Source: Acidimicrobiales bacterium (GTDB lineage Bacteria; Actinomycetota; Acidimicrobiia; Acidimicrobiales; AC-14). Taken from it: 64,000 nucleotides of DNA. The position numbers and the translations under genes are program-made. The number at the start of each line of letters is the position of its first letter. The stretch's first letter is position 1. Location: positions 1-64,000 of the forward strand of contig JAODBK010000091.1 of NCBI GenBank assembly GCA_025463925.1, written 5' to 3'. Shown here one piece after another: positions 1,051 through 33,513 of the stretch. The notes beneath the pieces were generated by a model. That model saw nothing but the letters and a program-made list of their open reading frames with translations, had not been told where the DNA came from and searched no databases.

Positions 1051-1053
1051 ACG

Positions 1054-1087: not shown

Positions 1088-1106
1088 TTCCCTCGATGTT
1101 GTTGAA

Positions 1107-1754: not shown

Positions 1755-2618
1755 TTAAAACACGAAATCGAGGGGTTTGTCGGATTGTTTCAGTTGAAAG
1801 TGCGCGTGGGCGACGCGGGCGGTCGCCGGGAAGCGCCAGACGCACGTGACCTGCCGGGTCCCGACGAAGGCCCGCCCGGACCACGGGACCGTCCGGCCGT
1901 CAGCCGCGGTGAGTTCGGCCCCGGCCCCGTCGAACGAGACGTCGGTCGCCGACGTGGTCTGCGTGATCGCCCACGTCGCGGTGCCCGCGGTCAGCAGTGC
2001 GGTGAGTTGCATCGTGACGTCTCCGGCGGCCCGCTCGGCGCCGATGGCCGACCACCCGATGAGCGCGCCGTCGATCTTGAACCCGACCAGCGTCCAGTCG
2101 GCCCCGACACGGTCGAGCACCGGCTCGCCGATCTGGACGGTGCGGGTGAACTGATCGGACCGGTCGGTGAATGCCAGGTCGGCGTTCAAGCTCGCGCGCG
2201 ATCCCGACTGGGACCGCAGCGACCCGCCGGTCAGCCGGCCCGAGTAGGAGTGCGGGTGCCCGGCGGCGGCATCCGACTGCGCCACCACCCGAGTCACCGC
2301 GGTCCATCCGTTGGCGCCGTCGCGGCTCGCGACCGACGCGCCGGCGAGATCACCACTCGCCAGTGCCCGGGCCCAGCGCTCCCATGCAGCGCGGACCGGC
2401 GCGACGTCGACCGTCGTGGTGGGCCCGCCCGCGCCCACACCGACCGGCCCGGTCGTCGCGGTGACGTCGGTGAGGAGCGTCGTCGTCGTCGCTCCCGCCG
2501 GAGCGGTGGTCGGAGCCGCCGACCGGTCGGCGGCCGCGGGCCCGCCGCCACTCCCACCACCGCTGCACCCGGCCGCGAACAGCGCGCAGAGCCCGACGAG
2601 CGCGACCGATCCCCTCAT
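1755..2618 (-). CDS. Lipoprotein of unknown function
   Basis: From ATG 2618 the protein starts MRGSVALVGLCALFAAGC, a lipoprotein signal peptide with lipobox AAGC, followed by a Gly/Ser and Thr/Pro-rich linker of about 60 residues. The rest (about 200 residues) looks like a compact extracytoplasmic domain, with an AAWERWARALASGDLAGA helix reminiscent of SnoaL/NTF2-like or DUF4440-type accessory folds, then beta-rich sequence. It would be anchored to the outer face of the membrane. It is divergent from a sigma-factor gene at 2741 with only about 120 bp between them, so it may be a target or sensor partner of that sigma factor. This link is inferred from position only. Confidence 0.7.
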   Translation of the reverse strand: MRGSVALVGLCALFAAGCSGGGSGGGPAAADRSAAPTTAPAGATTTTLLTDVTATTGPVGVGAGGPTTTVDVAPVRAAWERWARALASGDLAGASVASRDGANGWTAVTRVVAQSDAAAGHPHSYSGRLTGGSLRSQSGSRASLNADLAFTDRSDQFTRTVQIGEPVLDRVGADWTLVGFKIDGALIGWSAIGAERAAGDVTMQLTALLTAGTATWAITQTTSATDVSFDGAGAELTAADGRTVPWSGRAFVGTRQVTCVWRFPATARVAHAHFQLKQSDKPLDFVF

Positions 2619-2740
2619 TCCGGGACGGTTCGACACCGGCGGCCCGTCCCCTGGCGGAGAGGAGATCAGGCGACGGACGTCGAACTGCCTGGATGGGCTA
2701 GGGGAGTCCTGCGGGGGTGGACCAAGCCGGGGGAGCGGAA

Positions 2741-3934: not shown

Positions 3935-3937
3935 TCT

Positions 3938-3953
3938 CGGGGTAGCGACCCCG
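3938..3953 (+). terminator. Small hairpin after sigma-factor gene
   Basis: CGGGGT pairs with ACCCCG around a four-base AGCG loop, directly after the sigma-factor stop and 20 bp before the purF start. The stem is short and has no U tract, so it could be a weak terminator or simply chance. Confidence 0.35.
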
Positions 3954-3972
3954 CCTGTGCGAAGATGGCGGT

Positions 3973-5433
3973 GTGGAACTGGCCCTCTGGGACGGCGACA
4001 CCCCCAAAGAAGCCTGCGGAGTCTTCGGCGTCTATGCCCCGGGCCACCCGGTTGCCCATCTGGCGTACGCCGGACTGCACGCGCTGCAACATCGGGGCCA
4101 GGAGTCGGCCGGCATGGCGGTCAGCGACGGCGACACCATCACCGTCGTCAAGGACATGGGCCTGGTCACCAACGTGTTCGACCAGCGGACGCTCGCGCCG
4201 CTCGTCGGGCACCTGGCCATCGGCCACACGCGGTACTCCACCACCGGCTCGAGCACCTGGCGCAACGCGCAGCCCATCTACCGCTCGGTCGGCGACGCCG
4301 GCTTCGCGCTGGGTCACAACGGCAACCTGACGAACACCACCGACCTGGTAGCGCGGACCGGCGTGCTCGACGGCACCGTCACCAGCGACAGCGACCTCAT
4401 CGCCGAGCTCTGCCAGGACGCGATCATCCGGGCCGGCGAGGGGCTGCGCAGCGACGGCCGCGACCTGGAGCGGGCGCTCGTCGAGGTGCTGCCGTTGCTC
4501 GATGGCGCGTTCTCCCTCGTCCTGATGGACGACTCCCATCTGATCGGCGTGCGCGACCCCAACGGGTTCCGCCCGCTCTGCCTGGGCCGGCTCGACAACG
4601 GGTGGGTGTTGGCCTCGGAGACCCCGGCGCTCGACATCGTCGGCGCCCACTTCGTGCGCGAGCTCGAGCCGGGCGAGATGGTCGTCATCGACGCCACCGG
4701 CGTGCGGAGCATCCACCCGTTCCCGCCCGATCGGATCAAGCCGAAGCTGTGCCTGTTCGAGTTCGTCTACTTCGCCCGCCCGGACAGCCAGCTGTACGGC
4801 CAGACCGTGCACACCGCGCGCCAGCGCATGGGCGAGCTGCTCGCCGAGCAGGCGCCGGTCGACGCCGAGATGGTGATGCCGGTGCCCGAGTCGGGCATCC
4901 CGGCGGCCGAGGGCTACGCCCGGCGCAGCGGCATCCCGTACGGGCACGGCCTGGTGAAGAACCGCTACATCGGGCGGACGTTCATCGCGCCGAGCCAGGA
5001 GATGCGCAACCTCGGCGTCCGCATGAAGCTCAACCCGATCAGGGAGAACATCGCCGGCAAGCGGCTGGTCGTCGTCGACGACTCCATCGTCCGCGGCACG
5101 ACGACGCGGGCGATGATCCGGATGCTGCGCGAGGCCGGCGCCGCCGAAATCCACCTGCGGGTGTCGTCGCCGCCGTACCGCTGGCCGTGCTACTTCGGCA
5201 TGGACACCGGCACCCGCGCCGAGCTGATCGCGGCCGATCTCACCGTGCCCGAGGTGTGCGAGTACGTCGGCGCCGACACACTGGCGTACCTCGAGCTCGA
5301 CCGTCTCGTCTCGGCCACCGGCGCCGCCGGCGCCGGCTTCTGCACCGCCTGCCTCACCGGCGAGTACCCCATCGAGATCGGCCCACCGCCGACCAAGGCC
5401 GCGCTCGACCCGGTCGCACCCGTCAGTGGGTGA
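3973..5433 (+). CDS. purF: Amidophosphoribosyltransferase, first step of purine synthesis
   Basis: PurF moves the amide nitrogen of glutamine to PRPP, giving 5-phosphoribosylamine. The 486-residue protein starts MELALWDGDTPKEACGVFGV, a short propeptide that must be clipped to expose catalytic Cys15. The glutaminase half shows HRGQESAGMA and GHTRYSTTG. The transferase half shows the PRPP loop VVVDDSIVRGTT. Cys residues in KLCLFEF, WPCYFGMD and FCTACLTGEYP sit where Bacillus-type PurF binds a [4Fe-4S] cluster, so this is probably the oxygen-sensitive, cluster-containing form. GTG 3973 is the start. The end overlaps purM by 8 bp, indicating translational coupling. Confidence 0.97.
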   Translation: MELALWDGDTPKEACGVFGVYAPGHPVAHLAYAGLHALQHRGQESAGMAVSDGDTITVVKDMGLVTNVFDQRTLAPLVGHLAIGHTRYSTTGSSTWRNAQPIYRSVGDAGFALGHNGNLTNTTDLVARTGVLDGTVTSDSDLIAELCQDAIIRAGEGLRSDGRDLERALVEVLPLLDGAFSLVLMDDSHLIGVRDPNGFRPLCLGRLDNGWVLASETPALDIVGAHFVRELEPGEMVVIDATGVRSIHPFPPDRIKPKLCLFEFVYFARPDSQLYGQTVHTARQRMGELLAEQAPVDAEMVMPVPESGIPAAEGYARRSGIPYGHGLVKNRYIGRTFIAPSQEMRNLGVRMKLNPIRENIAGKRLVVVDDSIVRGTTTRAMIRMLREAGAAEIHLRVSSPPYRWPCYFGMDTGTRAELIAADLTVPEVCEYVGADTLAYLELDRLVSATGAAGAGFCTACLTGEYPIEIGPPPTKAALDPVAPVSG

Positions 5434-17804: not shown

Positions 17805-18108
17805 CGTGTTGCATCGTCGCCCACAGGCCGTGCTCGTGCAGGCGGAACACGTCGAGCTCGGCCTTCTCCCGGGGCCCGTTCGACACGACGGCCTTGCCCT
17901 TCTGGTGGACGTCGAGCATCAGCTTCTCGGCCTTCGACTTGCTGTACCCGAACAGCTTCTGGAACACGAACGTCACGTAGGACATGAGGTTGATCGGATC
18001 GTTCCAGACGATGACCACCCACGGGCGGTCGGCGGCTACGAACTCGTCGGATGTGGGCTCGCGGACCTCGGTGGGGGCGAGGCCGACGGTCGGCTCGAGG
18101 CAGCCCAT
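17797..18108 (-). CDS. clpS: ClpS adaptor for Clp protease
   Basis: ClpS delivers proteins with destabilising N-terminal residues to ClpAP/ClpCP. The 103-residue protein has the family core: [20 protein letters not shown] with the N-end-rule pocket Asn-Asp, [20 protein letters not shown], and a C-terminal [18 protein letters not shown] strand. The first 27 residues are a variable tail. ATG 18108 lies inside the 3' end of ctaA, giving a 73-bp same-strand overlap. No later start preserves the core, so the overlap is probably real. Confidence 0.93.
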
Positions 18109-19013
18109 GCCTCCATTCTCGCCGGTTCGGCGAGGACCCGGGACAAGGCGAGCCGCAGGCGCAACACCGCCACCCAGACGGCGGCGGCGCCGGCGATGTG
18201 GATGCCGACGAGCACCACCGGGACGCCATTGAAGTACTGGATGTAGCCGACGGCTGCCTGGGCGATCAGCACCACGAGCAGCGCGCGCACCCGGCGCATC
18301 GGCTCGGCCGGCGCGCCGGCCCGCCGGAGCAGCCAGACCATCGTCAGCGTCATCGCCAGGAAGAGCATCACCGCGGCGCCGTGGAACTGCGCGACCCGGT
18401 GCAGCGGGATGTCGAGGCGTCTCACGTGCTCGTCGCCGCCGTGCGGACCGGCCGCGGTGACGACCGTGCCGAGGAAGACGACCAGCGCGGCGGCCGCGAC
18501 GAGCAGATCGCCCACCCGGCGGGTGTCCACGTCGACGACCGGGCGGACGGTGACCGGTGGGTCGGGCCGCCCGGCCCGCTCGTACAACACCACCGCGTCG
18601 GCCAGCAGCGCCATCGACAGCAGGAAGTGGCCCATCACCAGCGGCGGCGCCAGGTCGAACAGCACGGTGAGGCCGCCGAGGATGATCTGGCCGATCACGC
18701 CGCCGACCAGGCCGACCGACAGCCACACCAGGTCGCGCCGTCGCGGGCCGCGCCGCCGCAGCGAGCCCAGCACCGCCAGCGCGACCGCCACCGACACGAG
18801 CCCGGTGAAGGTGCGGTTGATCGACTCGATGGCCCGGTGGGCGCTGGTCGCCTGCACCAACGAGCCGCGACTGCAGGTCGGCCAGTCCGGGCAGCCGAGC
18901 CCCGATCCGGTGAGCCGGACGGCCCCGCCGGTGACGATGATGACCGCGACCGCGATCAACGCGAGGAGGGTGATCCGCCGGTAGGCGTCGGCAGAGAGGG
19001 CGAGCCGGCGCAT
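18036..19013 (-). CDS. ctaA: Haem A synthase
   Basis: CtaA oxidises the C8 methyl of haem O to give haem A for cytochrome c oxidase. The 325-residue protein has about eight membrane helices and the conserved His residues in [40 protein letters not shown] and [12 protein letters not shown]. It also has the extracellular Cys pair in [11 protein letters not shown] near the first loop, as in Gram-positive CtaA. ATG 19013 is used. It is divergent from ctaB, the enzyme that makes its haem O substrate, with 67 bp between. Confidence 0.93.
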
Positions 19014-19080: not shown

Positions 19081-19989
19081 ATGGCCCGGTCCGCGATGAC
19101 GCTGCCCCGCGCCGACACCCCGACTCGCAGCCGGGTCGCGGCGTTCGTCGCGCTCACCAAGCCGCGCATCATCGAGCTGCTGCTCGTGACGACGGTGCCG
19201 ACGATGATCGTCGCCCGCCGCGGCTGGCCGGCGACCTGGCTGGTGGTCGCCACCGTCGTGGGTGGCACGCTGGCGGCCGGCGGCGCCAACGCCATCAACA
19301 TGGTGATCGACCGCGACATCGACGCCGTCATGCACCGCACCCGCAACCGGCCGCTCGTCACCGGCGAGATCGAGCCCGGCGAGGCACTCATCTTCGCCAT
19401 CGCGCTGGAGGCCATCGCCTTCGTCGAGCTGGCCGTCATGGCCAACCTGTTGAGCGCGGTGCTCGCAGTGTCGGCGACGCTGTTCTACGTCTTCGTGTAC
19501 ACGCTCTGGCTCAAGCGGCGTTCCGTCGAGAACATCGTGATCGGCGGCGCCGCCGGCGCGGTGCCCGTGCTGGTGGGCTGGTCCGCGGTGACCGGGCGAC
19601 TGGACTGGGCGCCGGTGGTGCTGTTCGCCATCATCTTCTACTGGACGCCACCGCACTTCTGGGCACTCGCGGTGAAGTACCGCGACGACTACTCGGCCGC
19701 CGGCGTGCCGATGCTGCCGTCGGTGGCGAGCCTGGCGGTGACCGCCCGGCGCATCCTGCTGTACACCCTGCTGCTGTGGTCGGTGAGCCTGCTCTTCGTG
19801 CCGGTCGGGCACATGGGGATCGTCTACCTGGTCGCCGCGGTCGTGCTCGGCGGCGTGTTCACCGCGATGGCCGTGCACCTCGTCCGCGACACGACGACCG
19901 TGGTCGCGATGCGGCTGTTCAGTTGGTCGATCACGTACGTCGCGCTGCTCTTCGGGGCGATGGCCATCGACCAGCTGGTGAAGCTTTGA
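19081..19989 (+). CDS. ctaB: Protohaem IX farnesyltransferase (haem O synthase)
   Basis: CtaB attaches a farnesyl group to haem B, giving haem O. The 302-residue protein has around nine membrane helices and the polyprenyltransferase motif in [20 protein letters not shown], with Asp-rich metal site and RTRNRPL. The second Asp-type motif, [14 protein letters not shown], lies near residue 200. ATG 19081 follows a promoter-like sequence closely. It is the first gene of a long run of oxidase genes on the plus strand and divergent from ctaA. Confidence 0.95.
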
Positions 19990-20028: not shown

Positions 20029-20040
20029 GTCCGCAGCCGA

Positions 20041-21623
20041 TGTCCACCTGGCTGACCGCCACCGACCACAAGACCATCGGCAAGCTGCACCTGCTGGTCG
20101 GTGCGCTGTTCCTGGTCGCGGCCGGGGTGATCGGGGCGATCCTGCGCACGCAGCTCATCAGCCCGGCCGCCTCGGTGATCAACGCCAACAAGTTCGGCCA
20201 GTTGCTCACGCTCCACGGGCTGTTCGGCGTCTTCCTCTTCGCCATGCCGGTGTGGGCCGGGCTCGCCTTCGCGATGGTGCCGCTGCAGCTGGGCGCGCCC
20301 CGCCTGGCATTCCCACGGCTCGCGGCCCAGTCGCTGTGGCTCTTCCTCGGCGGTGGCGCGCTCCTGATCGCGGCCGCGCTCACGCCCAACTCCGGCGTGC
20401 CGGTCTACGGCTGGGCCCTCGACCCCGCGGTTGCCCAGTTGCGGGGCGCCGACGGCCGGGCCGCCGACCTCGTGGTGGTCGGGCTGTTCCTGGTGTGCCT
20501 GGCGATCCTGCTGGCGGCGTTGAACCTGGTGGCGACGATCATCACCATGCGGGTGCCGGGGCTCACGCTGCGGCGGCTCCCCATCTTCAGCTGGTCGGTG
20601 CTGGTGTCCGGGCTGATGCTGGTCCTCGCGGTCCCGGTGCTCGTCGCCGCGCTGGCGATGCTGTTCGTCGACCGGCACTACGGCGGCCACGTCTTCGACG
20701 CGACGGCCGGCGGCTCGCCCGAGTCGTGGGAGCGGCTCTTCTGGTTCTTCGCCACGCCGACGATGTGGGCGCTGCTGCTGCCGGGCCTCGGCGCGGCGAC
20801 GGAGATCGTCCCGGTGTTCGCCGGCCGGCCGCTGTTCCAACGGCAGGTGGCGGTCGGCGCCATTGCGGGCATCGGCGTGCTGGCGTTCTTCGGGTGGGGC
20901 AGCGAGCTCGTGCAGCCCGACACCGCGCACCGGGCCTTCTTCGGCGCCGCCGCGGTGATCGTGCTCGGGCCGGCCGCGGCGCTGCTGCTCACGTGGCTCG
21001 GCACGTTGAAGGAGGGCCGGCCGCGGCTGGCCTCCCCGATCGTCGCCAGCCTCGGGCTGCTGACGTTGGTGGGCGCCGGCCTCGCCGGGCGGCTCGTCAC
21101 CGCGGTCGCGCCCACGGGCAAGGTCGGCGTCGGGTCGGAGTGGGCCCAGGGCGCCCGCCACGAGCTGTTCTTCGCCGGCGCGCTGGTGGGGCTGGTCGCG
21201 GCGCTGGCCTACTGGGCGCCCAAGCTCTGGGGCCGCCGGCTGTCCGAGCCGGGCGCGATCCTCGGCACGGTGGCGTTGGTCGGGGGCCTGCACCTCACCT
21301 TCCTCCCGATGTACGTGCTCGGCGCGCAAGGCATGAAGACCCACGCGACCACCTACGCCGGCCACTCCAGTTGGCGGGCCGCCAACCTGGTGTCGACGCT
21401 CGGCGGCTACCTCGCGATCATCGGGGTCCTGCTCGTCACGCTGACGATCGTGCACGGCATCCTCGCCGGTGAGCCGGCGCCCGACGATCCGTGGGAGGGG
21501 GCGACGTTGGAGTGGGCGACCACGTCCCCGCCGCCGCCGCACAACTTCGACACCATTCCCGTCGTGCGATCGGACCGCCCGGTGGCCGACCTGCGTCTCG
21601 CCACCGTGGCCGGAGAGGCCTGA
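20041..21623 (+). CDS. Haem-copper oxidase subunit I-like protein without an oxygen-reducing site
   Basis: This 527-residue protein is a clear paralog of the genuine CtaD encoded at 24839: [60 protein letters not shown]. It keeps His59 and His374, where the two low-spin haem ligands belong. The CuB ligand and cross-linked Tyr of FGHPEVY read ATPTMW (Thr239, Trp243). The WAHHMF pair reads Val291-Gln292. The haem a3 His of AHFHY is Ala372. The D-channel Asp in GARDVAFPR is also gone (GAPRLAFPR). It cannot be a normal oxidase; a one-haem electron-transfer or assembly role is inferred. Reading frame and helices are intact, so it is not a decaying pseudogene. Confidence 0.88.
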
Positions 21624-21625
21624 CG

Positions 21626-22255
21626 ATGGCCGTCGCGACCCGCCCGCCCGCCGACGTCGCCCCGGGCGGCGCGCCGGCGCTGCCCGCGGCCGAAGGGCCG
21701 ATCGAGCTGCCCGACGGCAAGGGCGCGACCGCGCTCGCCGGACTGCTGTTCCTCGTCGCCGACACCATGGTGCTCGGCGGGCTGCTGGCGGTGTTCTTCG
21801 CGGTGCGCGGCCAAGCCCCCGCCTTCCCCCCGCGCGACACCCATCCCGGCGTCTACGTCCCGGTCGTCATCTGCTTCACCGCGTTCCTCGCGGCCATGTC
21901 GGCGCAGTGGGCGGTGGTCTCGGCGCGTCGCGACGATCGGCGCAACGGTCTGGTGAGCTTGGCGATGACGCTCGGGTTCATGCTGGCCATCGCCAACATC
22001 CAGACGTACGCCTACCGCAAGCTCGGGTTCTCGGTCACCAAGCACGCGTACGCGTCGCTGTACTACCTGCTCACCGGGTTCCACCTGGCGAACGTCGTGA
22101 TCGCGGCGGCGATGCTGGTGGTGGCGTTCGCCCGGGTGGCCGCCGGTCACGTCCATCCCGACGCCGACGGACCGGTGCGGGCCGCGGCCCGTTTCACGCA
22201 GTACGTGAACCTCGTCTACCTCGCGGTCTTCATCGCCATCTACGTGGTCGCCTGA
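21626..22255 (+). CDS. Cytochrome oxidase subunit III-like protein of the shadow set
   Basis: The 209-residue protein has about five membrane helices after a Pro/Ala-rich N-terminus. ALAGLLFLVADTMVLGGLLA matches the first helix of CtaE (KIAMWAFLASDCLLFGALIS), and ASLYYLLTGFHLANVVIAAA matches FGSSFFVLTGFHGTHVFIGV. It is a paralog of the genuine CtaE at 26830. It starts 2 bp after the subunit I-like gene and its stop overlaps the next start, so the three genes are co-translated. It is presumably a structural partner of the subunit I-like protein in the membrane. Confidence 0.82.
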   Translation: MAVATRPPADVAPGGAPALPAAEGPIELPDGKGATALAGLLFLVADTMVLGGLLAVFFAVRGQAPAFPPRDTHPGVYVPVVICFTAFLAAMSAQWAVVSARRDDRRNGLVSLAMTLGFMLAIANIQTYAYRKLGFSVTKHAYASLYYLLTGFHLANVVIAAAMLVVAFARVAAGHVHPDADGPVRAAARFTQYVNLVYLAVFIAIYVVA

Positions 22256-23217
22256 TGCTGCCCGAGTCCGCCAAGGTCAGCCTGCCGCTGTCGCTCCTGG
22301 GCCTGGCGGCCGCGTTCGTCTACGCCGTCCTCGGCGGCGACGACACCGGTCTCTGGCTCTTCGCCGCGCTCAGCACGGCCGCGGCCATCGCGACGGCGGT
22401 GCTGCTCCCGCCGCGCCCGGCGGACGCGGTCGTTGCCGCCGGTCCGGTACGCGTGCGCGAGGCAGTGGCCCCGAGGCCGGCGGGCCAGGGCGGGTGGCCG
22501 CTGCTGATCGGGCTGGGCGCGACGTTCTTCGCGGTGTCGTTCGTCTACGGCCACGGCTGGGGCGTCGCCGGTGTGCTGATCGCGGCGGCCGGCGGGATCG
22601 GATGGCTGGCGCAGGTCGCGGCCGACCTGCGGGGCGACACGGTGTACATCGCGCCGCTCTCGATCCCGGTGGTCGCGGCCGCCACCATCGGCTCGCTGAT
22701 GTACTTCATCTCGCGCGTGCTGCTCGCGGTCTCGCCGCACACGTCCACCGCGGTCGCAATCGCGGTGGCCGCCGGCCTGTTGCTCGTCGCGGTGCTGCTC
22801 GCGGTCCGCATCGACAGCCTCGGGTCGGGCGCGGTCATCCTGGTGCTCGCGCTGGGCGCGGCCGCGGTGATCGTCGCCGGGATCGGTGGCCTGACCGCCG
22901 GCCAGCGCGCCGAGGAGCACGCCGCCGGCGCCTCCCCGGGCCCGAACGTGGCGGTCGTCGCGAGGAACACCCAGTTCGACACCAAGACGCTGGATCTGCC
23001 GGCCCAGCAGTCCGAGGTGCTGAGGTTCGACAACCGTGACCCCGTGTTCCACAACATCGCGATCTACCGCGACAAGAACTTCACCCGGGCCCTCTTCAAC
23101 GGCACGCCGATCGAGAAGTCGTCGATCGAGTACAAGACACCGGAGCTGGCGGCCGGCACCTACTACTTCCACTGCGACTTCCACCCCGCCATGCAGGGCA
23201 CGGTCGACGTCAAGTAG
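22255..23217 (+). CDS. Polytopic membrane protein with C-terminal type-1 (blue) copper domain
   Basis: Residues 1-220 contain about seven hydrophobic helices with no recognised family. The last 85 residues form a cupredoxin domain with a mononuclear type-1 copper site: His266 in PVFHNIAIY, then Cys307, His310 and Met313 in FHCDFHPAMQG. This is not a CuA site, which needs two Cys in CxxxCxxxH as in ctaC nearby. The gene occupies the place where a subunit II would be expected, next to subunit I-like and III-like paralogs, and overlaps the latter (ATGA-type junction). The blue-copper domain would face outside and could take electrons from or give them to a soluble carrier. Confidence 0.82.
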   Translation: MLPESAKVSLPLSLLGLAAAFVYAVLGGDDTGLWLFAALSTAAAIATAVLLPPRPADAVVAAGPVRVREAVAPRPAGQGGWPLLIGLGATFFAVSFVYGHGWGVAGVLIAAAGGIGWLAQVAADLRGDTVYIAPLSIPVVAAATIGSLMYFISRVLLAVSPHTSTAVAIAVAAGLLLVAVLLAVRIDSLGSGAVILVLALGAAAVIVAGIGGLTAGQRAEEHAAGASPGPNVAVVARNTQFDTKTLDLPAQQSEVLRFDNRDPVFHNIAIYRDKNFTRALFNGTPIEKSSIEYKTPELAAGTYYFHCDFHPAMQGTVDVK

Positions 23218-23224
23218 AGGGGCG

Positions 23225-23716
23225 GTGTCGGCAGTCCTCGCGACGGCGATGCTCGCGGCGTGCGGTCACGGCAGCGGCGTGCCGCTGGGGCGCCCGTCGG
23301 ACCTCGGCCCGGCGCCGGCCATCGAGCTGCCCGCGGTGGCCGACGGCCAGCCGGCCGTGTCGCTCGCGGCCCGGCGGGGCACACCGGTGATCGTCAACTT
23401 CTGGTCGTCGTCGTGCGTGCCGTGCCGCACCGAGACACCGGCCCTCGAGGCGGCCCACCGGAAGACCGGCGGCCGGGTGGCGTTCGTCGGCGTCGACGAG
23501 GAGGACGTGAAGGCCGACGCGCAGGCCGCGCTGCGGGCGTGGGGCGCGACCTACCCCTCGGCCTACGACCGCGACGGCGTCCTCGCCGACGGCTACCGGC
23601 TCGTCGGGCTGCCCACGACGGTGCTGGTGGGCGCCGACGGCCGGATGCGCCTGCGCCACACCGGGCCGCTCGACGAGAAGGCCATCGCCGCCCTGGTGAA
23701 GCTGGCGGCGGCATGA
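23225..23716 (+). CDS. Thioredoxin-fold lipoprotein (TlpA/ResA type)
   Basis: A short lipoprotein signal (VSAVLATAMLAAC) is followed by a thioredoxin-like domain: VIVNFWSSSCVPCRTETPAL with active CVPC, VAFVGVDEEDVKADAQAAL, and GLPTTVLVGADG with the cis-Pro. It would act outside the membrane as a disulfide reductase, perhaps preparing the CuA Cys pair or the cytochrome c CxxCH of the following ctaC product. GTG 23225 has GAGGGG upstream. It lies between the shadow set and the genuine oxidase genes. Confidence 0.85.
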   Translation: MSAVLATAMLAACGHGSGVPLGRPSDLGPAPAIELPAVADGQPAVSLAARRGTPVIVNFWSSSCVPCRTETPALEAAHRKTGGRVAFVGVDEEDVKADAQAALRAWGATYPSAYDRDGVLADGYRLVGLPTTVLVGADGRMRLRHTGPLDEKAIAALVKLAAA

Positions 23717-23778
23717 TTGGACGGGCTTCGCCTCAGCGGCAAATCTACGACCGGATGATCCACCGGAGGGTTCCTCGC

Positions 23779-24828
23779 ATGGGTGTGTCGCGGCGTCGCG
23801 GCGCCGTCGCGCTGGCCGTCGGCATCGGCCTGCTGATGACCGCGTGCGCCAAGCACGCGCCCCAGGACACGCTCAAGCCCAACGGGCCGGCCGCCCGCAC
23901 GATCGACCACCTCTACGTTCCGGTGTTCTGGATCGCGGCCGTGATCTTCGTCCTGGTCCAGGGCCTGCTGCTCGTCTTCCTGTTCAAGTACCGCGACCGC
24001 GGCGAACGCGACGAGCGGCCGGAGCCGGTGCAGCTGCACGGCAACACCAAGCTCGAGTTCGGCTGGACGGTCGTGCCGGCGGTGCTGCTGGCGCTCGTCG
24101 CGGCGGCGACGCTGCCGACGATCTTCAAGCTGGCCAAGAAGCCGACGAACCCGATCAACGTCACGGTTGTCGGCCACCAGTTCTGGTGGGAGTACCGCTA
24201 CACCGATCCCGACATCGGCGTGGTGACGGCCAACGAGCTGCACATGCCGGTCGGCCGGGACGTGTACATCACCGAGGACGGCACGCTCCGCAAGCCCGAC
24301 GGCACGCTCGACGCCGACGTCATCCACTCGTTCTGGGTGCCGCGTCTCAACGGCAAGACCGACATGATCCCCGGCCGCGTCAACCACATGAAGCTCAAGG
24401 CGGACACGCCCGGGGTGTACTTGGGCCAGTGCACCGAGTTCTGCGGCCTGTCGCACGCCAACATGCGGTTGAAGGCGATCGCCGAGACGCCGGCCGAGTT
24501 CGACGCGTGGGTGCAGACGATGAAGAAGCCGGCGGCCACGCCCGTCGACGGCGACCCGGCGTTCGCCGGCTACCAGCTGTTCACCAGCCGGGGCTGCGCC
24601 GGCTGCCACACCGTCGACGGGTACACGGAGGGGCTGGTCGGCCCCAACCTCACGCACGTCTACAGCCGTACGTCGTTCGCCGGCGCGCTGTTCGACATGT
24701 CGCCGGCCAATCTGAGCAAGTGGCTGCGCAACCCACCGGGGGAGAAGCCGGGTTCGCGCATGCCGAACCTCAACCTCACGCCCGACGAGATCAGCAAGCT
24801 CGTCGCGTACCTCGAGACGCTCAAGTAA
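23779..24828 (+). CDS. ctaC: Cytochrome c oxidase subunit II with fused cytochrome c
   Basis: Subunit II receives electrons and passes them to subunit I. The 349-residue protein has a lipoprotein signal ending LLMTAC, two membrane helices, and a CuA domain with His in HSFWVPRLNGKTD and GQCTEFCGLSHANM (Cys-x3-Cys-x3-His-x2-Met). A C-terminal cytochrome c domain has SRGCAGCHTVDG and axial Met in RMPNLNLTP. This caa3-type fusion carries its own haem c. ATG 23779 is preferred, with GGAGGG eight bases upstream; ATG 23713, overlapping the previous stop, is possible. Confidence 0.95.
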   Translation: MGVSRRRGAVALAVGIGLLMTACAKHAPQDTLKPNGPAARTIDHLYVPVFWIAAVIFVLVQGLLLVFLFKYRDRGERDERPEPVQLHGNTKLEFGWTVVPAVLLALVAAATLPTIFKLAKKPTNPINVTVVGHQFWWEYRYTDPDIGVVTANELHMPVGRDVYITEDGTLRKPDGTLDADVIHSFWVPRLNGKTDMIPGRVNHMKLKADTPGVYLGQCTEFCGLSHANMRLKAIAETPAEFDAWVQTMKKPAATPVDGDPAFAGYQLFTSRGCAGCHTVDGYTEGLVGPNLTHVYSRTSFAGALFDMSPANLSKWLRNPPGEKPGSRMPNLNLTPDEISKLVAYLETLK

Positions 24829-24838
24829 GGCGGAGATC

Positions 24839-26830
24839 TTGGCCAGCGTGACCGAACCGATCGCCTACGGGCAGACGCCGCCACTGACGGCGCGCCGCAG
24901 CCTCCTGCGCCGGCCGACGTCGACTGCCGGCCTGTGGGGCTGGATCACGACCGTCGACCACAAGCGCATCGGCATCATGTACGGCGTCAGCGCGTTCGTG
25001 TTCTTCCTGCTGGGCGGGATCGAGGCACTGCTCCTGCGCCTGCAGCTCGGTGGTCCGAACCAGCACGTGCTGTCGGCCAGCGCGTACAACCAGGTGTTCA
25101 CGATGCACGGCACCACGATGATCTTCCTGGTCATCATGCCGATGGCCGCCGCCTTCGCGAACTACCTCGTGCCGATCATGATCGGGGCGCGCGACGTCGC
25201 CTTCCCGCGCCTCAACGCGTTCGGGTTCTGGACGTTCCTCGCCGGTGGGCTGTTCATGTACTCGAGCTTCCTGCTCGGCGGCGCGCCCAACGGCGGGTGG
25301 TTCGGCTACGTGCCCCAGACGCTGAAGGCCTACAGCCCGGGCCACAACATCGACTTCTGGGTGTTCGGCCTGCAGATCCTGGGCATCGCGTCGCTCACCG
25401 GCGCGATCAACCTGATCGTGACGATCATCAACATGCGCGCCCCCGGCATGAGCTTCATGCGCATGCCGATCTTCGTGTGGATGTCGCTCGTCGCGCAGTT
25501 CCTGCTGTTGTTCGCCCTGCCGGTCATCACGGTGGCGCTGTTCCTGCTGATGTTCGACCGGCAGTTCGGCGGGCACTTCTTCGACGCCCAGGCCGGCGCC
25601 GACCCGCTCCTCTGGCAGCACCTGTTCTGGATCTTCGGCCATCCGGAGGTCTACATCCTCATCCTCCCGGCGATGGGCATCGTCTCCGAGGTGCTGCCGG
25701 TGTACGCCCGCAAGCCGCTGTTCGGCTACGCCGTCAAGGTGTTCTCGGGCATCGCCATCGGCTTCATGGGTTGGGGCGTGTGGGCGCACCACATGTTCGC
25801 CACCGGACTCGGGCCGGTGGCCATCTCGGCGTTCGGCCTGTCGACGATGTTCATCGCGGTGCCCACCGGCGTGAAGATCTTCAACTGGCTCGGCACCCTG
25901 TGGGGCGGCAAGTTGCGCATCACGACGCCGTTCCTGTTCGCCGTCGGCTTCGTCGCCATGTTCACCATCGGCGGGCTGTCGGGCGTCACCCACGCGGTCG
26001 TGCCGGCCGACACCCAGCAGACGGACACCTACTACATCGTCGCCCACTTCCACTACGTCATGTTCGGCGGCTCGATCTTCGGCCTGTTCGCCGGCGTGTA
26101 CTACTGGGCGCCCAAGGTCACCGGCAAGATGCTGAGCGACTTCCTCGGCAAGATCCACTTCTGGCTCATGCTCGTCGGGTTCAACCTGACGTTCGGCCCG
26201 ATGCACATCCTCGGCCTCCAGGGCCAGCCCCGTCGCATCTACACGTACCCGGCCGGGCGCGGCTGGGAGTTCTGGAACCTGGTCTCGACGATCGGTGCCT
26301 TCACCATCGCGGCGTCGATCGTGGTGTTCATCGTGAACGTCATCCGGACCAAGATCAGCGACCAGCCCAACGTCGGCGCCGACCCGTGGGATGCCCGGAC
26401 GCTCGAGTGGACCATCCCCTCGCCACCGCCCGAGTACAACTTCGCCGAGGAGCCGCTGGTGACGGCGCGCGACGAGCTGTGGCACCGCAAGTACGACGAG
26501 GACGGAGACGGCCGCGCCATCCGGCGCGAGCTGGACTACCCGGTGGTGATGGACGAGGTGCCCGACGAAGTGCACGTGCACATGCCGTCGCCGTCGTACT
26601 GGCCGCTGGTGGCGTCGTTCACGTTGCCGGCGGTCGCGTACGGGATGATCTACCGGGCCTGGCCGGTGGCGATCGCCGCCGGCGTCGTCGAGATCACCGC
26701 GCTGTACTCGTGGGCGCTCGAGCCGTCGACCGCGCCCCCGGATCCCGACGAGGGGACCGAGGACCACGGGCCCGAGTTGGACAGTGGCGAACCGGCGGCG
26801 GCCGAGCTCGAAACGGCGGACGCGGACTGA
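24839..26830 (+). CDS. ctaD: Cytochrome c oxidase subunit I, with C-terminal extension
   Basis: This is the genuine catalytic subunit. All ligands are present: MHGTTMIF (low-spin haem), FGHPEVYILILP (CuB His and cross-linked Tyr), WAHHMF (CuB), and IVAHFHYVMFGG (haem a3 and low-spin haem). K-channel VPTGVKIFNWLG and D-channel GARDVAFPRLN are intact. The 663-residue chain is longer than usual because about 100 extra residues at the end add two helices (around YWPLVASFTLPAVAYG) and an acidic tail. TTG 24839 is close to GGCGGAG; GTG 24848 is an alternative. ctaE follows with a 1-bp overlap. Confidence 0.96.
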   Translation: MASVTEPIAYGQTPPLTARRSLLRRPTSTAGLWGWITTVDHKRIGIMYGVSAFVFFLLGGIEALLLRLQLGGPNQHVLSASAYNQVFTMHGTTMIFLVIMPMAAAFANYLVPIMIGARDVAFPRLNAFGFWTFLAGGLFMYSSFLLGGAPNGGWFGYVPQTLKAYSPGHNIDFWVFGLQILGIASLTGAINLIVTIINMRAPGMSFMRMPIFVWMSLVAQFLLLFALPVITVALFLLMFDRQFGGHFFDAQAGADPLLWQHLFWIFGHPEVYILILPAMGIVSEVLPVYARKPLFGYAVKVFSGIAIGFMGWGVWAHHMFATGLGPVAISAFGLSTMFIAVPTGVKIFNWLGTLWGGKLRITTPFLFAVGFVAMFTIGGLSGVTHAVVPADTQQTDTYYIVAHFHYVMFGGSIFGLFAGVYYWAPKVTGKMLSDFLGKIHFWLMLVGFNLTFGPMHILGLQGQPRRIYTYPAGRGWEFWNLVSTIGAFTIAASIVVFIVNVIRTKISDQPNVGADPWDARTLEWTIPSPPPEYNFAEEPLVTARDELWHRKYDEDGDGRAIRRELDYPVVMDEVPDEVHVHMPSPSYWPLVASFTLPAVAYGMIYRAWPVAIAAGVVEITALYSWALEPSTAPPDPDEGTEDHGPELDSGEPAAAELETADAD

Positions 26831-27444
26831 TGGCGGCCACCGTGCACGATCCGGTCGAGGCCGACGACGACGTCCTGCACCACAGCGCCACCGGCCTCAG
26901 CAACGAGAAGATCGCCATGTGGGCCTTCCTGGCGTCGGACTGCCTGCTGTTCGGCGCGCTGATCTCGACGTACATCCTGTACCGGGGCCGCAGCGTCGTC
27001 GGTCCGTACCCGCACGGCGTGTACGACATCCCGTACACGTCGGTCAGCTCGTTCGTGCTGCTCATGAGCTCGCTCACGATGGTGCTGGCGCTCTCAGCCA
27101 TCCAGCGCAACGACCAGCGGCGGCTGCGCATCTGGCTGCTCACCACCGCGCTCTTGGGCACGGTGTTCATCGGCGGCCAGGTCTACGAGTTCACATCGTT
27201 CGTGCGGATGGGGCTCAAGATCCACACCAACCTGTTCGGGTCGAGCTTCTTCGTGCTCACCGGGTTCCATGGCACCCACGTCTTCATCGGCGTGCTGATG
27301 CTCATGTCGTTGTTCAGCCTCTCGCTGAAGGGCAAGCTGCCCCAGGAGAAGGCCCAGACGGTCGAGCTCGTCGGCCTCTACTGGCACTTCGTCGACGTCA
27401 TCTGGATCCTGATCTTCACCCTCGTCTACCTGATCCCGTCCTGA
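26830..27444 (+). CDS. ctaE: Cytochrome c oxidase subunit III
   Basis: The 204-residue protein has five membrane helices with typical segments KIAMWAFLASDCLLFGALIS, FEFTSFVRMG-like VYEFTSFVRMG, FVLTGFHGTHVFIGVLML and VGLYWHFVDVIWILIFTLVY. The conserved Glu and His residues are present, as expected for a normal subunit III. ATG 26830 overlaps the ctaD stop by one base. It is part of ctaC-D-E-F-G. Confidence 0.95.
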   Translation: MAATVHDPVEADDDVLHHSATGLSNEKIAMWAFLASDCLLFGALISTYILYRGRSVVGPYPHGVYDIPYTSVSSFVLLMSSLTMVLALSAIQRNDQRRLRIWLLTTALLGTVFIGGQVYEFTSFVRMGLKIHTNLFGSSFFVLTGFHGTHVFIGVLMLMSLFSLSLKGKLPQEKAQTVELVGLYWHFVDVIWILIFTLVYLIPS

Positions 27445-27449: not shown

Positions 27450-27791
27450 ATGACCGACACCGCAACGAGCCATGAGGTCGAGCCCCACACCCACGACGAG
27501 CGCGCCCATCCGAGCGACGCCCAGTACGTCGCCGTCGCGTTGGTGTTGGGGGCGATCACCGCCGTCGAGGTCGGGGTGTACTACATCACCGCGATACCGA
27601 AGCATCTCCTCACGACGATGCTGATCGTGATGTCGGCGGTGAAGTTCAGCGCCGTCGTGCTCTGGTTCATGCACCTGCGGTTCGACAGCCGCCTGTTCCG
27701 CCGGCTGTTCGTCACCGGTCTCGTGCTGGCATTCGCGGTGTTCCTGATCTTCCTGTCGAGCCTGCACTTCTACTCGCCCTCGCGGCACTGA
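27450..27791 (+). CDS. ctaF: Cytochrome c oxidase subunit IV (CyoD/COX4 prokaryotic type)
   Basis: This small 113-residue membrane protein has three hydrophobic helices (YVAVALVLGAITAVEVGVYY, TMLIVMSAVKFSAVVLWFMH, LFVTGLVLAFAVFLIFLSSL). The KFSAVVLWFMHLRFDSRLF pattern is typical of prokaryotic subunit IV. The N-terminus is His-rich (EVEPHTHDERAHP). It starts 5 bp after ctaE. Its role is in assembly or stability of the oxidase; it has no redox centre. Confidence 0.88.
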   Translation: MTDTATSHEVEPHTHDERAHPSDAQYVAVALVLGAITAVEVGVYYITAIPKHLLTTMLIVMSAVKFSAVVLWFMHLRFDSRLFRRLFVTGLVLAFAVFLIFLSSLHFYSPSRH

Positions 27792-27802: not shown

Positions 27803-28702
27803 ATGGTGGGCACGGTCGAAGTCGCCACCAACCACTTCCCGGGGTTCCACGTCCATCCCGACGTGATCGCCTTGGTCGTCGTGCTCCAGGGTTGGTACGT
27901 CCTCGCGTTGCGGCGCGAGCGGGCTCGTCGGCGGGCGGCGGGCGACCCCGGGCCGGTGGCCACGCCGGGCCAGATCCGGGCCTGGTCGGCGGGGGTGTTC
28001 CTGGTGTTCGTGGCGGCGGGGTGGCCGCTCCACGACCTGGCCGAGGGCTACTTCTACAGCGCCCACATGGTGCAGCACATGTTGCTCACGCTCGCGGTGG
28101 CGCCGTTGCTGTTGATGGGCACGCCGACTTGGCTGGCTCGGCGCGCCGTGCCCGGCGACCGGGCGCGGGCGGTGCTCCGGCAGGTGTGCCGGCCGGGCGT
28201 CGGCGTCATCCAGTTCAACGCCATCCTCGTGCTGTCGCACTGGCCGACCGTCGTCGACCTGACGCTGCGCCACCACTTGCTCCATCTGGTCGCCCACGCG
28301 GTGTTGCTGCTGTCGGCGATGGCGATGTGGATGGTGGTCGTCAGCCCGTTGCCCGAGGTGCCGCGCGCCAAGCCGCCGACGCAGATGCTGTACCTGTTCC
28401 TCATGACGATCGTGCCGACGGTGCCGGCGTCGTTCCTCACGTTCAACTCCAAGCCGCTCTACCACTTCTACGAGCACGTGCCCCGGTTGTGGGGGTGGGC
28501 CGCGCTGTCGGACCAGCAGGTTGCCGGGCTGCTCATGAAGATCGTCGGCGGCTTCGACCTCTGGGTGGTGATCGCCGTCGTCTTCTTCCGGTGGCACCAA
28601 CGCGAGGAGCGCCTCGAGCGCGACGCCGCCAAGGGTGACGTGCTGCTGTGGGAGGACGTCGAACCCTTCGTCACCGAACCACAGGTGCGGCGACGAGTGT
28701 GA
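27803..28702 (+). CDS. ctaG: Cytochrome c oxidase assembly protein, CtaG/caa3 type
   Basis: The 299-residue protein has about seven membrane helices and the His-rich motifs of the caa3_CtaG family: AHMVQHMLLTLAVAPLLLMG, LSHWPTVVDLTLRHHLLH and NSKPLYHFYEHVPRLWG. Family members are needed for CuB/CuA insertion or late assembly of caa3 oxidase. ATG 27803 follows ctaF by 11 bp. The stop overlaps the next thioredoxin lipoprotein start by four bases, so copper delivery and disulfide reduction seem coupled. Confidence 0.9.
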   Translation: MVGTVEVATNHFPGFHVHPDVIALVVVLQGWYVLALRRERARRRAAGDPGPVATPGQIRAWSAGVFLVFVAAGWPLHDLAEGYFYSAHMVQHMLLTLAVAPLLLMGTPTWLARRAVPGDRARAVLRQVCRPGVGVIQFNAILVLSHWPTVVDLTLRHHLLHLVAHAVLLLSAMAMWMVVVSPLPEVPRAKPPTQMLYLFLMTIVPTVPASFLTFNSKPLYHFYEHVPRLWGWAALSDQQVAGLLMKIVGGFDLWVVIAVVFFRWHQREERLERDAAKGDVLLWEDVEPFVTEPQVRRRV

Positions 28703-30300: not shown

Positions 30301-31356
30301 GTGCACATTCGTCATGCCCTGAGCACGGCCGTTGTGGTGTTGTGCTGGACGACGGCGTGCGGCGGCAGCCATCACACCGCTCGTGCTGTGCCGTCGACCG
30401 CCGCGGCGACCACGCCGGCCGCCCCGACGACCACCACCACAGTTGCGGTCCAACTGCAGTGGTCCGCCCCGCAGAAGATCGACCCGGACCAGGGCTACGC
30501 CGACGTTTCGTGTGCCTCGCCGAGCTTCTGCGCGGCGGTGGTCGCAAGCAAGACCGCCGGGCGTGCGGTCGTCTGGAATGGCACCTCCTGGTCGGCCCCG
30601 AAGCTGCTCGCCCAACAGAACCTCAACCACGTGTCGTGCACCTCGGCCACCTTCTGCTTGGCCGGTGGTCCTAATGGTGCCGGGTACCTGTGGAACGGCA
30701 ATTCGTGGGCCACGGGCGCGCAGATCCGGTGGCCGAACCCCAACGACGGCATCACCAACGTGGCCTGCACATCGCCGACCTTCTGCGCCGCTCCCGACGA
30801 GGACAATGACGTACGCATCTGGAACGGCAGTTCCTGGTCCATCGAACACAAGGTCGGGAGCGACTCGATCTCCTGCCCCTCGCCCACGTTCTGCATGGTG
30901 GTCGACGAAGGGGGCAATGCAGCCGTGTGGAACGGCACCTTATTCTCCCCGCCCGCCAACATCGACGGTACCGAACACTTCGCCGCGGTCTCGTGCCCGT
31001 CAGCCAGCTTCTGCTTGGCGATCGACCAGAGCGGCAATTGGCTCGCCTGGAACGGCACGACGTGGTCCTCAGCCCAGAAGATGCAGCCCGCCAGCCACTG
31101 CTTCTCGAACTGCGGGCCGAGCGTCATCAACTGGGTGTCGTGTCCGACCTCGACCGACTGTGTCGCGGTGGGATCCGACGGCAGCGAGGCCGACTGGAAC
31201 GGCACGGTGTGGTCCTCGCCGCGGTCGATCGATCCGAGCCTGGCCAGTAGCAGAGGCGGGTCTCTCGGCATCGACGCGGTGTCCTGCCCGACGACGACCT
31301 TCTGTGTCGCCGTGTTCGCGGACGGCAACGCGGTGATCGGCCGGCGTGCCGGATGA
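30301..31356 (+). CDS. Lipoprotein with seven Cys-pair repeats, probable beta-propeller
   Basis: GTG 30301 gives a lipoprotein signal ending WTTAC and a Thr/Ala-rich linker. The rest is seven repeats of about 38-50 residues with the pattern VSC-x-S-x-x-FC-x-AV, then WNG-x-x-W-S-x-P. Each repeat holds two Cys six or seven residues apart, likely a disulfide. The W-x-G/aromatic spacing and the number seven suggest a seven-bladed beta-propeller on the outer surface. Similar VSCPSxxFCxAV repeat proteins are common in actinobacteria, with no known ligand. It begins 27 bp after the truncated methyltransferase. Confidence 0.8.
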   Translation: MHIRHALSTAVVVLCWTTACGGSHHTARAVPSTAAATTPAAPTTTTTVAVQLQWSAPQKIDPDQGYADVSCASPSFCAAVVASKTAGRAVVWNGTSWSAPKLLAQQNLNHVSCTSATFCLAGGPNGAGYLWNGNSWATGAQIRWPNPNDGITNVACTSPTFCAAPDEDNDVRIWNGSSWSIEHKVGSDSISCPSPTFCMVVDEGGNAAVWNGTLFSPPANIDGTEHFAAVSCPSASFCLAIDQSGNWLAWNGTTWSSAQKMQPASHCFSNCGPSVINWVSCPTSTDCVAVGSDGSEADWNGTVWSSPRSIDPSLASSRGGSLGIDAVSCPTTTFCVAVFADGNAVIGRRAG

Positions 31357-31926
31357 CCCGTCGTGCCTTCGCCGCGGTCACCTGGCTACGAATGACAGCC
31401 TGCGGTGGCACCAGCCAATGCGCAACAGCGGCCCGGTCAGCAGTCCGCCTAGCGCACCGGGGCACTTCTCGGATGGCTGCTGCCCGCTGGGGAACTCTCA
31501 GTTCGACTCCACCTGGACGTCGATCCCGGATGTCGATCTTCCGAACCCCTGTACGAACCGTCCGATGCACTCAAGTGGCTCGGAGAACTGGCGCTCGTCC
31601 CGCGCAGGCTCGTCGGTGCGTAGCGAACGGGTACGCCGAAGGTTCAGATCCAACACACAACCCGCTTCTCCCAAATATCACCTGACGCGTCAGGTTCAAC
31701 AGCTCGTCTCGTGGCGGGATCGGCCGCAGATCGGCCCCACGGTCTTCTCCGACGGAATGACTATGGACGCCGTCGTTGATCGAGGCATTTCAAGCCGCAT
31801 TGGGTTGTTCTGGAGCTTCAGACCTTGACGCCGCGCGCGGGGCAGTCCATCGTCGATGCCAGAGGGCAACCTACGGTTGCGGCGGCGCTCCGGCCCCTGG
31901 TGCGTCATTTGAGGGGGCGAGCGGTC
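31357..31926. other. Non-coding stretch between the two repeat proteins
   Basis: I see no convincing gene here. Base composition is less GC-rich than in the core regions, and open frames on both strands lack recognisable motifs. It holds a perfect 16-bp palindrome at 31680-31695 and the ribosome site of the next gene (GAGGGGG near 31910). Confidence 0.6.
31680..31695. repeat. Perfect 16-bp palindrome ACCTGACGCGTCAGGT
   Basis: The 16-bp sequence is its own reverse complement. Its 12-bp core CTGACGCGTCAG occurs again at 35755-35766. It may be a regulator site or a recombination mark. Confidence 0.6.
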
Positions 31927-33513
31927 ATGAGCGACAGCACGAGGTCAATTTGGCGTAGGTGCCGCGACGATCGTGTGCGAACGGCGATCCGCCGAACAAA
32001 GCTGCACCGCAGGCATCGCGCTTTAGCCCTTCGGAGTTTCGTCCTCACGCTGGCGGTCGTCGCTGGACTTTGCGTTGTAGGTGCGGGGTCCGCGTCGGCC
32101 AGCACCATCATTCAGCCGGTGCCGGGGACGGATAACCTCGTGGGCGTCGCCTGTCCCAGCGTCGCCACCTGCTATGCGGTAGGACGGAACTCTTCGGGCC
32201 AGGGCGTGGTTGTACCGATTACCAACGGAATCGCGGGCAGCGCCCTGGTCGTGTCAGGGACGACTGGCCTCTCCGGCATCACATGTCCGAACGTCACCAC
32301 GTGCTACGCCGTCGGTGGTCAGCCCGGGGATTCCCATCTAAACAACACTGGCGTGGTCGTGCCCATCACGGGGGGCGTCGCGGGCAGCCCCCAGGTGGCG
32401 TCGGGCACCTTGGATCTGTTTGGCATCGCCTGTTCAAGCGCCACCAGCTGCGAAGCCGTGGGCTTCAAGTATGTGGGCGCGCCCTTCTTCAATGAGGGCG
32501 TGGTCGTGCCCATCACCAACGGCAGTCCGGGAACCGCGCAGGCGATACCTGGGACCTATGAGGTCCTCGATGTTGCATGTTCAAGCGCCACGGCCTGTGA
32601 TGCCACCGGATTGAACTCCTCGACCGACGAGGGCGTGGTAGTGCCCATCACCGGCGGCACCGCGGGCAGCGCCCAGCCAGTCACAGGAACCTTCGTCCTC
32701 GAAGGCATCGCATGTACCAGCGCCACCACGTGCACGGCGGTCGGTCCGAACTCCTCGTTCACCGCAGGCGTGTTGGTGCCCATCACCGGAGGCACTCCCG
32801 GCAGCCCCCAAGCGGTGTCCGGGACAAACTTCCTCGGTGGCTTCACCTGTACCAGCGCCACAAGCTGTGTGGCGGTGGGAGAGAACCCGTCTTTTGAGGG
32901 CGCGGTGGTGCCGATCACAAATGGAGTTGCGGGGACCGTCCAAGCGGTGCCGGGGACTGGCGCCATCGATGCCGTGGCCTGTATGAGCGCCACCATCTGC
33001 GAGGCGGTGGGTTACAACTCTTCGTTCAGTGAGGGTGTCGTGGTTTCACTGGGCGCCAACCTGAACGGAGCGAACCTCACCGGCGCCAACCTGACTGGCG
33101 CCAACCTCACCGGCGCCAACCTGAACGGAGCGAACCTCGTCGTCGCCAACCTGACTGGCGCCAACCTCACCGGCGCCAACCTGAACGGAGCGAACCTCCT
33201 CGGCGCCAACCTGACTGGCGCCAACCTCATCGGCGCCAACCTGAACGGCGCGACCCTCAGCATCGCCAACCTCACCAGCGCCAACCTCAGCGGCGCCAAC
33301 CTCAGCGGCGCGAACCTCCTCGGCGCCAACCTGACTGGCGCCAACCTCATCGGCGCCAACCTGAGCAAGGCGGACCTCATCGGCGCCAACCTCACCGGTG
33401 CCACCACCACAGGCGCGAAATTCACCGGCGCTGTGTGGTTCAACACGACCTGTCCGAACGGCGTCAATAGCAACAGCTACTCACCTGATACCTGTGTCGG
33501 TCACGGCATCTGA
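31927..33513 (+). CDS. Secreted protein: seven Cys-pair repeats followed by a pentapeptide-repeat helix
   Basis: After a signal peptide (SFVLTLAVVAGLCVVGAGSA) the protein has seven repeats of about 45 residues. Each carries V-x-GT-x-x-L-x-GIAC-x-SAT-x-C-x-AVG then GVVVPITNG-x-x-GS, with one Cys pair per repeat, suggesting a seven-bladed propeller. From about residue 376 it changes into about 25 pentapeptides of the A-N-L-x-G type (GANLT, GANLI, GANLN), a right-handed square beta-helix of about six turns. It is capped by FTGAVWFNTTCPNGVNSNS and CVGHG with two Cys. ATG 31927 is chosen; TTG 31825 is an upstream in-frame start without signal-peptide sense. A surface or adhesive role is inferred. 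Confidence 0.82.
   Translation: MSDSTRSIWRRCRDDRVRTAIRRTKLHRRHRALALRSFVLTLAVVAGLCVVGAGSASASTIIQPVPGTDNLVGVACPSVATCYAVGRNSSGQGVVVPITNGIAGSALVVSGTTGLSGITCPNVTTCYAVGGQPGDSHLNNTGVVVPITGGVAGSPQVASGTLDLFGIACSSATSCEAVGFKYVGAPFFNEGVVVPITNGSPGTAQAIPGTYEVLDVACSSATACDATGLNSSTDEGVVVPITGGTAGSAQPVTGTFVLEGIACTSATTCTAVGPNSSFTAGVLVPITGGTPGSPQAVSGTNFLGGFTCTSATSCVAVGENPSFEGAVVPITNGVAGTVQAVPGTGAIDAVACMSATICEAVGYNSSFSEGVVVSLGANLNGANLTGANLTGANLTGANLNGANLVVANLTGANLTGANLNGANLLGANLTGANLIGANLNGATLSIANLTSANLSGANLSGANLLGANLTGANLIGANLSKADLIGANLTGATTTGAKFTGAVWFNTTCPNGVNSNSYSPDTCVGHGI
33052..33432 (+). repeat. 15-bp tandem DNA repeat encoding pentapeptides
   Basis: Units such as GGCGCCAACCTGACT and GGCGCCAACCTCATC are repeated about 25 times with small changes and stay in frame. 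Blocks of 60 bp are almost identical (33061-33120, 33121-33180 and 33181-33240), which suggests recent expansion by slippage or unequal recombination. Confidence 0.85.

Follow-up and report, generated by a model that had tools for sequence, protein, structure and literature searches.

The locus studied here raises the question of what use a bacterium can have for a haem-copper oxidase subunit I that has lost its oxygen-reducing centre and is kept beside an intact copy of the same subunit. The window, meaning the whole stretch of DNA analysed (64,000 nucleotides of an Acidimicrobiales bacterium; assembly GCA_025463925.1, contig JAODBK010000091.1, positions 1 to 64,000, forward strand), carries the gene, here called SUI*, just ahead of a caa3-type oxidase. 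A sequence-only reading of the window had described SUI* as a paralog without the oxygen-reducing centre but with the low-spin haem ligands, and this description is confirmed by all ten genomes of the family to which the window belongs.

The subunit I paralog and its lost residues

SUI* occupies positions 20040-21623 of the forward strand, starts with ATG and encodes 527 amino acids; the start first given, 20041, was one base too late. The Pfam domain COX1 (PF00115) matches the protein end to end (2-436/436) with 264 bits, and BLASTP against the window's CtaD gives 35% identity over 521 aligned positions (E=1e-101). The NCBIfam equivalog CtaD_CoxA gives SUI* 395 bits, below the cut-off of 670.75 that the window's CtaD passes with 723 bits, and both of the genome's other PF00115 proteins score higher than SUI*. 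The AlphaFold model (pLDDT 74.8, pTM 0.82) resembles CcO subunit I structures with a TM score of about 0.83. With its full-length COX1 domain and this predicted fold, SUI* belongs by homology to the haem-copper oxidase subunit I superfamily and, as judged from its sequence, is a full-length family-A paralog. It shares with CtaD/COX1 the fold, the whole-length domain match, the low-spin His pair and a C-terminal LEW...SPPP..NF motif; unlike CtaD/COX1, it falls under the equivalog cut-off and has no CuB ligands, cross-linked Tyr, haem a3 ligand or D- and K-channel residues.

The window's family (f1) comprises 10 genomes from six genera, and each of them has an SUI* ortholog that is free of stops and, by alignment, 44-51% identical to the window protein. 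The low-spin haem pair, H59 (codon 20214-20216) and H374 (21159-21161), is invariant in all ten, and the residues of the oxygen site (three CuB His, the haem a3 His and the cross-linked Tyr) are absent from all ten. The first CuB His is replaced by Tyr or Thr (T239 in the window, 20754-20756), the cross-linked Tyr always by Trp (W243, 20766-20768), the CuB His pair by Ser-Glu or, once, Ser-Gln, and the haem a3 His by Gln, Ala or Val (A372, 21153-21155). The residue numbers H59, T239, W243, A372 and H374 of the sequence-only reading were correct. Its placement of the CuB pair at V291-Q292 holds on an ungapped alignment anchored on the shared GWG, although MAFFT gives S288-E289 and gapped BLASTP a position near H297-R298. 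This ambiguity rescues no ligand, because the family has no conserved His there. Its only invariant histidines are H10, H59, H213, H374 and H501, and a displacement of the canonical ligands to shifted positions was rejected on this ground.

The proton channels are affected as well. D132 of the D-channel is Arg in 10/10 sequences of the family, as expected from the earlier remark that this Asp is missing, and N139, E286, T359 and K362 of the D- and K-channels are all replaced (all in what we take to be R. sphaeroides numbering). With the residues of both channels gone, a proton-pumping family A oxidase was rejected. The columns without variation in CtaD number 172, of which 48 are kept and 59 lost by every one of the ten SUI* proteins; the catalytic residues fall among the lost columns and both low-spin His among the kept ones. 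D132 itself lies outside the strict invariance filter, and a hypergeometric value calculated for ten residues was set aside on that account. At the level of sequence, this pattern of loss and retention is neither chance nor error. Quinol handling had also been proposed. The family alignment of SUI* has no Arg or Asp at the equivalents of R71 and D75 and no His at that of H98, and Q101 is partly kept (presumably CyoB numbering for the bo3-type quinol site). A bo3-type quinol oxidase was rejected since this site is absent, and quinol handling of the bo3 type is therefore unlikely for SUI*.

The gene had been thought to be under selection rather than decaying, and the comparisons within the family agree: the frames are open and dN/dS is 0.19-0.43 between pairs, by which a pseudogene was rejected. 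A sequencing or assembly error behind the losses was rejected since the same losses occur in 10 genomes, whose frames are undamaged.

One genome of the family (G009, contig C79; locus L194) also carries a second, separate subunit I without CuB, with ORFs at 1893-4283 and 3836-4888 on the reverse strand and at 16-1880 on the forward strand. This protein has Q at the first CuB His, QG at the His pair and R at the a3 His and keeps the low-spin pair. Next to it is a subunit II whose CuA motif looks intact, with genes for a Rieske protein and cytochrome b nearby. As the locus consists of one 6 kb contig only, it may be a contaminant.

The cassette and its neighbours across the order

The genes around SUI* form a cluster. 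The gene for haem A synthase, ctaA (18036-19013, reverse strand, start approximate; named from its sequence and position), is divergent from ctaB, which codes for a haem O synthase of the UbiA family (19081-19989, forward strand; PF01040) and lies directly upstream of SUI*. All the genes that follow are on the forward strand. SUIII* (21626-22255) encodes a COX3 (subunit III) paralog of 209 amino acids (PF00510, 57 bits) and adjoins SUI* in relatives too. CUP (22255-23217) codes for a protein with seven predicted transmembrane helices, as read from an AF2 model, and a C-terminal type-1 copper domain (PF13473). The next gene (23220-23716, start approximate) codes for a TlpA/redoxin-like thiol-disulfide protein (PF00578/PF08534), and a similar gene is present in a number of relatives. 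It is followed by the caa3-type subunit II gene ctaC (23713-24828), whose CuA and CxxCH (cytochrome c domain) motifs can be read directly, and by ctaD (24839-26830), identified by Pfam and the CtaD_CoxA equivalog, which encodes the intact caa3-type subunit I with a full ligand set and served as the comparison protein. The genes ctaE (26830-27444) for subunit III of the intact oxidase and ctaF (27450-27791) for the small subunit IV rest on ORFs with homologs in relatives, and ctaG (27803-28702; PF09678, 167 bits) codes for a caa3-type assembly factor. Further along the window, at 30301-33513, short units containing Cys (SCPSxTxC-like) recur in two ORFs, and the second ORF has pentapeptide repeats (ANLxGANL...) at its end.

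The C-terminal domain of CUP resembles amicyanin by sequence and by fold. Its predicted copper ligands, H266, C307, H310 and M313 with an amicyanin-like C-x2-H-x2-M loop, make up the His, Cys, His, Met set of a type-1 site on a cupredoxin fold, and the HN and C-x2-H-x2/3-M motifs are conserved in the window's family. Two loci of one genus of this family (L047 and L048; genus g4) have two tandem type-1 copper domains in CUP.

Within the family the order ctaB, SUI*, SUIII*, CUP never varies, including in genomes that have ctaC-G on a different contig. Neighbourhoods across the order were found by a CUP profile search, whose 340/397 matches include cupredoxin-only ones and are not a count of modules. 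A subunit I paralog lies between ctaB and CUP at 69 distinct loci, of which the window is one. They come from 32 families of the order, apparently Acidimicrobiales; most of these genomes are drafts or metagenome assemblies. The same gene order recurs, usually followed by ctaC and ctaD. The gene ctaB lies directly upstream on the same strand at 65/65 loci where the contig shows it, ctaC lies downstream of the cassette at 63 loci, and ctaA homologs are found on the opposite strand near ctaB at 43. The sequence-only reading had proposed to look for the same losses in homologs beside ctaB, and they proved to be general: a complete oxygen site occurs at 0/69 loci, whereas no ligand is missing from the neighbouring CtaD proteins. 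The CuB His pair is absent at 69/69 loci and the first CuB His is kept only at one (L165). Many scaffold residues of SUI* are kept at more than 90% of the 69 loci.

Graded losses, copper and SURF1

In a tree of subunit I proteins, the SUI* sequences form one side of a branch with an SH-aLRT of 64, and they fall into three groups supported at 99-100. A single origin of SUI* is favoured by the tree and not proven, because the SH-aLRT is only 64. The first group is the window's family, with the low-spin His pair only. The second is an Arg-type clade (f8, f10, f11, f15, f16, f38 and f55), in which the first CuB His is Arg in 13/13 sequences, the His pair is mostly Ala-Gly, position E286 is Glu or Asp and position Y288 Tyr or Phe. 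The a3 His is kept in 9/13 and lost in 4/13, and both haem ligand sets are often kept together. Two members on long branches placed in this clade (f30 and f41) have lost the low-spin pair. The third group holds f14 and the remaining families; f14 keeps the low-spin pair and most of the others are without it. Ligand columns were assigned from aligned sequences that diverge widely, and the haem-less group is where the assignment is least secure. Most families outside that of the window have lost the haem ligands and the copper domain of CUP and kept the genes.

SUI* evolves faster than CtaD, and its dN/dS is 0.17-0.46 wherever synonymous sites are unsaturated. Outside the window's family the values are 0.26 in a haem-less pair (f20) and 0.43-0.46 in the pairs from f3 and f44; in the other haem-less pairs synonymous sites are saturated. 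The low-spin pair and the copper ligands of CUP tend to occur together: among the 69 loci, 24 have both, 34 neither, 9 the pair only (one of them cut by a contig end and one a duplicate record) and 2 the copper ligands only.

The presence of SURF1 (PF02104) follows a similar division. SURF1 was found in 41/41 cassette-bearing genomes with a CUP that no longer has the copper domain, and it was absent from 20/26 with a copper-bearing CUP, including 10/10 of the window's family; it is also missing from most of the Arg-type clade. The other six genomes have both SURF1 and a copper-bearing CUP. This pattern is a lead and not a proof, because the tree shows only about four changes between presence and absence of SURF1. 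The control search for SURF1 also misses well-known caa3 genomes such as Bacillus subtilis, which we take to have a caa3-type oxidase. The co-variation of haem pair, copper and SURF1 is phylogenetically clustered, with too few independent changes on the tree for independent-pair tests.

The cassette is further linked to the caa3 oxidase. A caa3-type CtaD is missing from 26/26 sampled genomes of the order in which CUP has no match or a weak one at most; their best CtaD match reaches at most 567 bits, versus more than 830 for nearly all caa3-type proteins. In other orders of the class, caa3-type CtaD occurs and the cassette does not. In other classes of the phylum (L175-L193), a shorter homolog of the C-terminal half of CUP, with about three transmembrane helices and the copper domain, lies directly after ctaG without SUI*, and it probably serves oxidase assembly or electron donation.

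Possible roles of the cassette

The sequence-only reading knew of no described function for such a protein. This holds for the cassette, since no published description of the order ctaB, SUI*, SUIII*, CUP was found in the open-access literature, but it does not hold for dead COX1 paralogs in general. Acetobacter is reported to have a COX1-like protein without any metal ligands that is clustered with ctaB and for which a structural role, stabilising CtaB, was proposed (PMC10715153, citing Matsutani et al. 2014). Both are catalytically dead COX1 paralogs kept in a ctaB cluster. Unlike the Acetobacter protein, SUI* keeps the low-spin His in f14, in the Arg-type clade and in the family of the window, and it is accompanied by a cupredoxin and a COX3 paralog with an intact caa3 oxidase next door. 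A dead COX1-like protein beside ctaB is already known, and the present cassette is new as a variant. In an Actinomycetes assembly (L012), a degenerate COX1-like protein on a very long branch (633-2360, forward strand) lies next to ctaB (2197-3606) and is possibly an independent case.

Other parts of the cassette have parallels as well. COX systems of iron oxidisers have been drawn with membrane-bound cupredoxins and TlpA (PMC8239418), and AcoP is a cupredoxin of Acidithiobacillus (PMC4059628). As in the cassette, a cupredoxin and a TlpA-like protein there go with an aa3 or caa3 oxidase (PMC8239418, PMC4059628). CUP differs from these cupredoxins in its seven predicted transmembrane helices and its tie to a dead subunit I, and it is likened to AcoP by the association with an oxidase. 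The haem A insertion factor SURF1 is comparable to CUP and SUI* in its proposed holding of haem during oxidase assembly and in a distribution largely complementary to that of copper-bearing CUP. However, no sequence relation was seen between SURF1 and the cassette proteins, and the functional overlap is a suggestion from their distribution.

The reading that we lean towards, at a little short of an even chance, is that the cassette encodes a pseudo-oxidase helper module for the biogenesis or stability of the caa3 oxidase. SUI* would be a subunit I paralog that lost oxygen reduction and proton pumping, probably in the ancestor of the order, and was retained with SUIII* and CUP as a helper of the adjacent oxidase. 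In the window's family, SUI* would hold one haem, supplied by the adjacent CtaB and CtaA, at its bis-His low-spin site, and CUP would hold one type-1 copper. These cofactors would help to load or stabilise CtaD and CtaC and might partly cover for SURF1, which is missing in these genomes. Haem binding, copper binding, the physical association and the helper role itself are what we infer from these comparisons. In favour of the helper role are the losses and retained His shared by all ten genomes of the family, purifying selection on SUI*, the constant place of the cassette beside ctaB, its co-occurrence with caa3-type CtaD, the CUP homolog that follows the assembly gene ctaG in other classes, the SURF1 pattern and the match of the predicted fold to CcO subunit I. 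The genes persist after the loss of all haem ligands, always by ctaB and usually ahead of ctaC and ctaD; the role common to all cassettes is therefore probably non-redox. Several points tell against the helper reading. The SURF1 and copper patterns are concentrated in a few clades, and SURF1 occurs together with a copper-bearing CUP in six genomes. Not every caa3-bearing bacterium has SURF1, so a genome that lacks it may need no substitute. The co-loss with caa3 CtaD may merely reflect a shared gene cluster, and a purely structural role leaves unexplained why the window's family conserves its haem and copper ligands so strictly.

The main rival to the helper role is an electron relay, in which the type-1 copper of CUP stands in for CuA and passes electrons to or from the low-spin haem of SUI*; the three proteins would form a membrane cupredoxin:haem complex that supplies the caa3 oxidase or a periplasmic carrier. 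SUI*, SUIII* and a cupredoxin would mimic the core of subunits I, III and II, the haem and copper ligands are both conserved in the window's family and tend to co-occur among the 69 loci, and cupredoxins are tied to aa3 oxidases in other bacteria (AcoP of Acidithiobacillus). We nevertheless regard a relay as unlikely. The one haem would lie near the outer face with no obvious acceptor or transmembrane path, the residues of a bo3-type quinol site are missing, the co-occurrence comes from clustered lineages with too few independent pairs, and the genes persist in many relatives that have none of the cofactor ligands. One-haem electron transfer, as put forward in the sequence-only reading, cannot be the function common to all, since most relatives outside the window's family have no low-spin ligands.

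A stronger form of the helper reading appears more doubtful than the relay. According to it, a pseudo-oxidase complex of dead SUI* with one haem, SUIII* and CUP would be a cofactor-loading station for the caa3 oxidase that replaces SURF1 in part of the order, its evolutionary stages (two haem sites, one and none) being preserved in living families.

It is less probable again that SUI* is a structural partner of CtaB only, stabilising haem O synthase, with the haem site as a product contact or a relic. Such a partnership would fit the position of ctaB, which is immediately upstream at all testable loci, also in genomes with ctaC-G elsewhere, as well as the published Acetobacter precedent (PMC10715153) and the other degenerate COX1-like protein adjoining ctaB in L012; yet genomes of the order without the cassette still have CtaB, and a partnership with CtaB does not account for SUIII*, CUP or the link to caa3 CtaD.

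A vestigial oxidase that decays slowly and is kept by its position inside an essential gene cluster is quite improbable. It would account for the graded loss of ligands and for evolution faster than that of CtaD, but the frames are open with dN/dS well under 1, the scaffold residues are widely kept, both low-spin His are strictly conserved in the window's family and the cassette is retained over dozens of families. Hardly credible is an altered enzyme in which the haem site of the Arg-type clade, with a distal Arg for CuB, handles peroxide, NO or O2 and the window protein is a further derivative: the Arg, acidic and aromatic residues and frequent a3 His of that clade speak for it, but some of its members have lost the a3 His, and SUI* of the window's family is without a second haem ligand, so that this cannot be its present function.

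Few enzymes have been studied as thoroughly as the haem-copper oxidases, and it is normally the active site that defines their subunit I. Here one order keeps a dead copy of subunit I beside the working enzyme in dozens of families, with anything from two haem ligand sets to none. The graded losses of SUI* provide nature's own series for examining the use of the scaffold in the absence of catalysis. With it one can test whether pseudo-oxidases contribute to the assembly or stability of respiratory complexes or take the place of known assembly factors such as SURF1.
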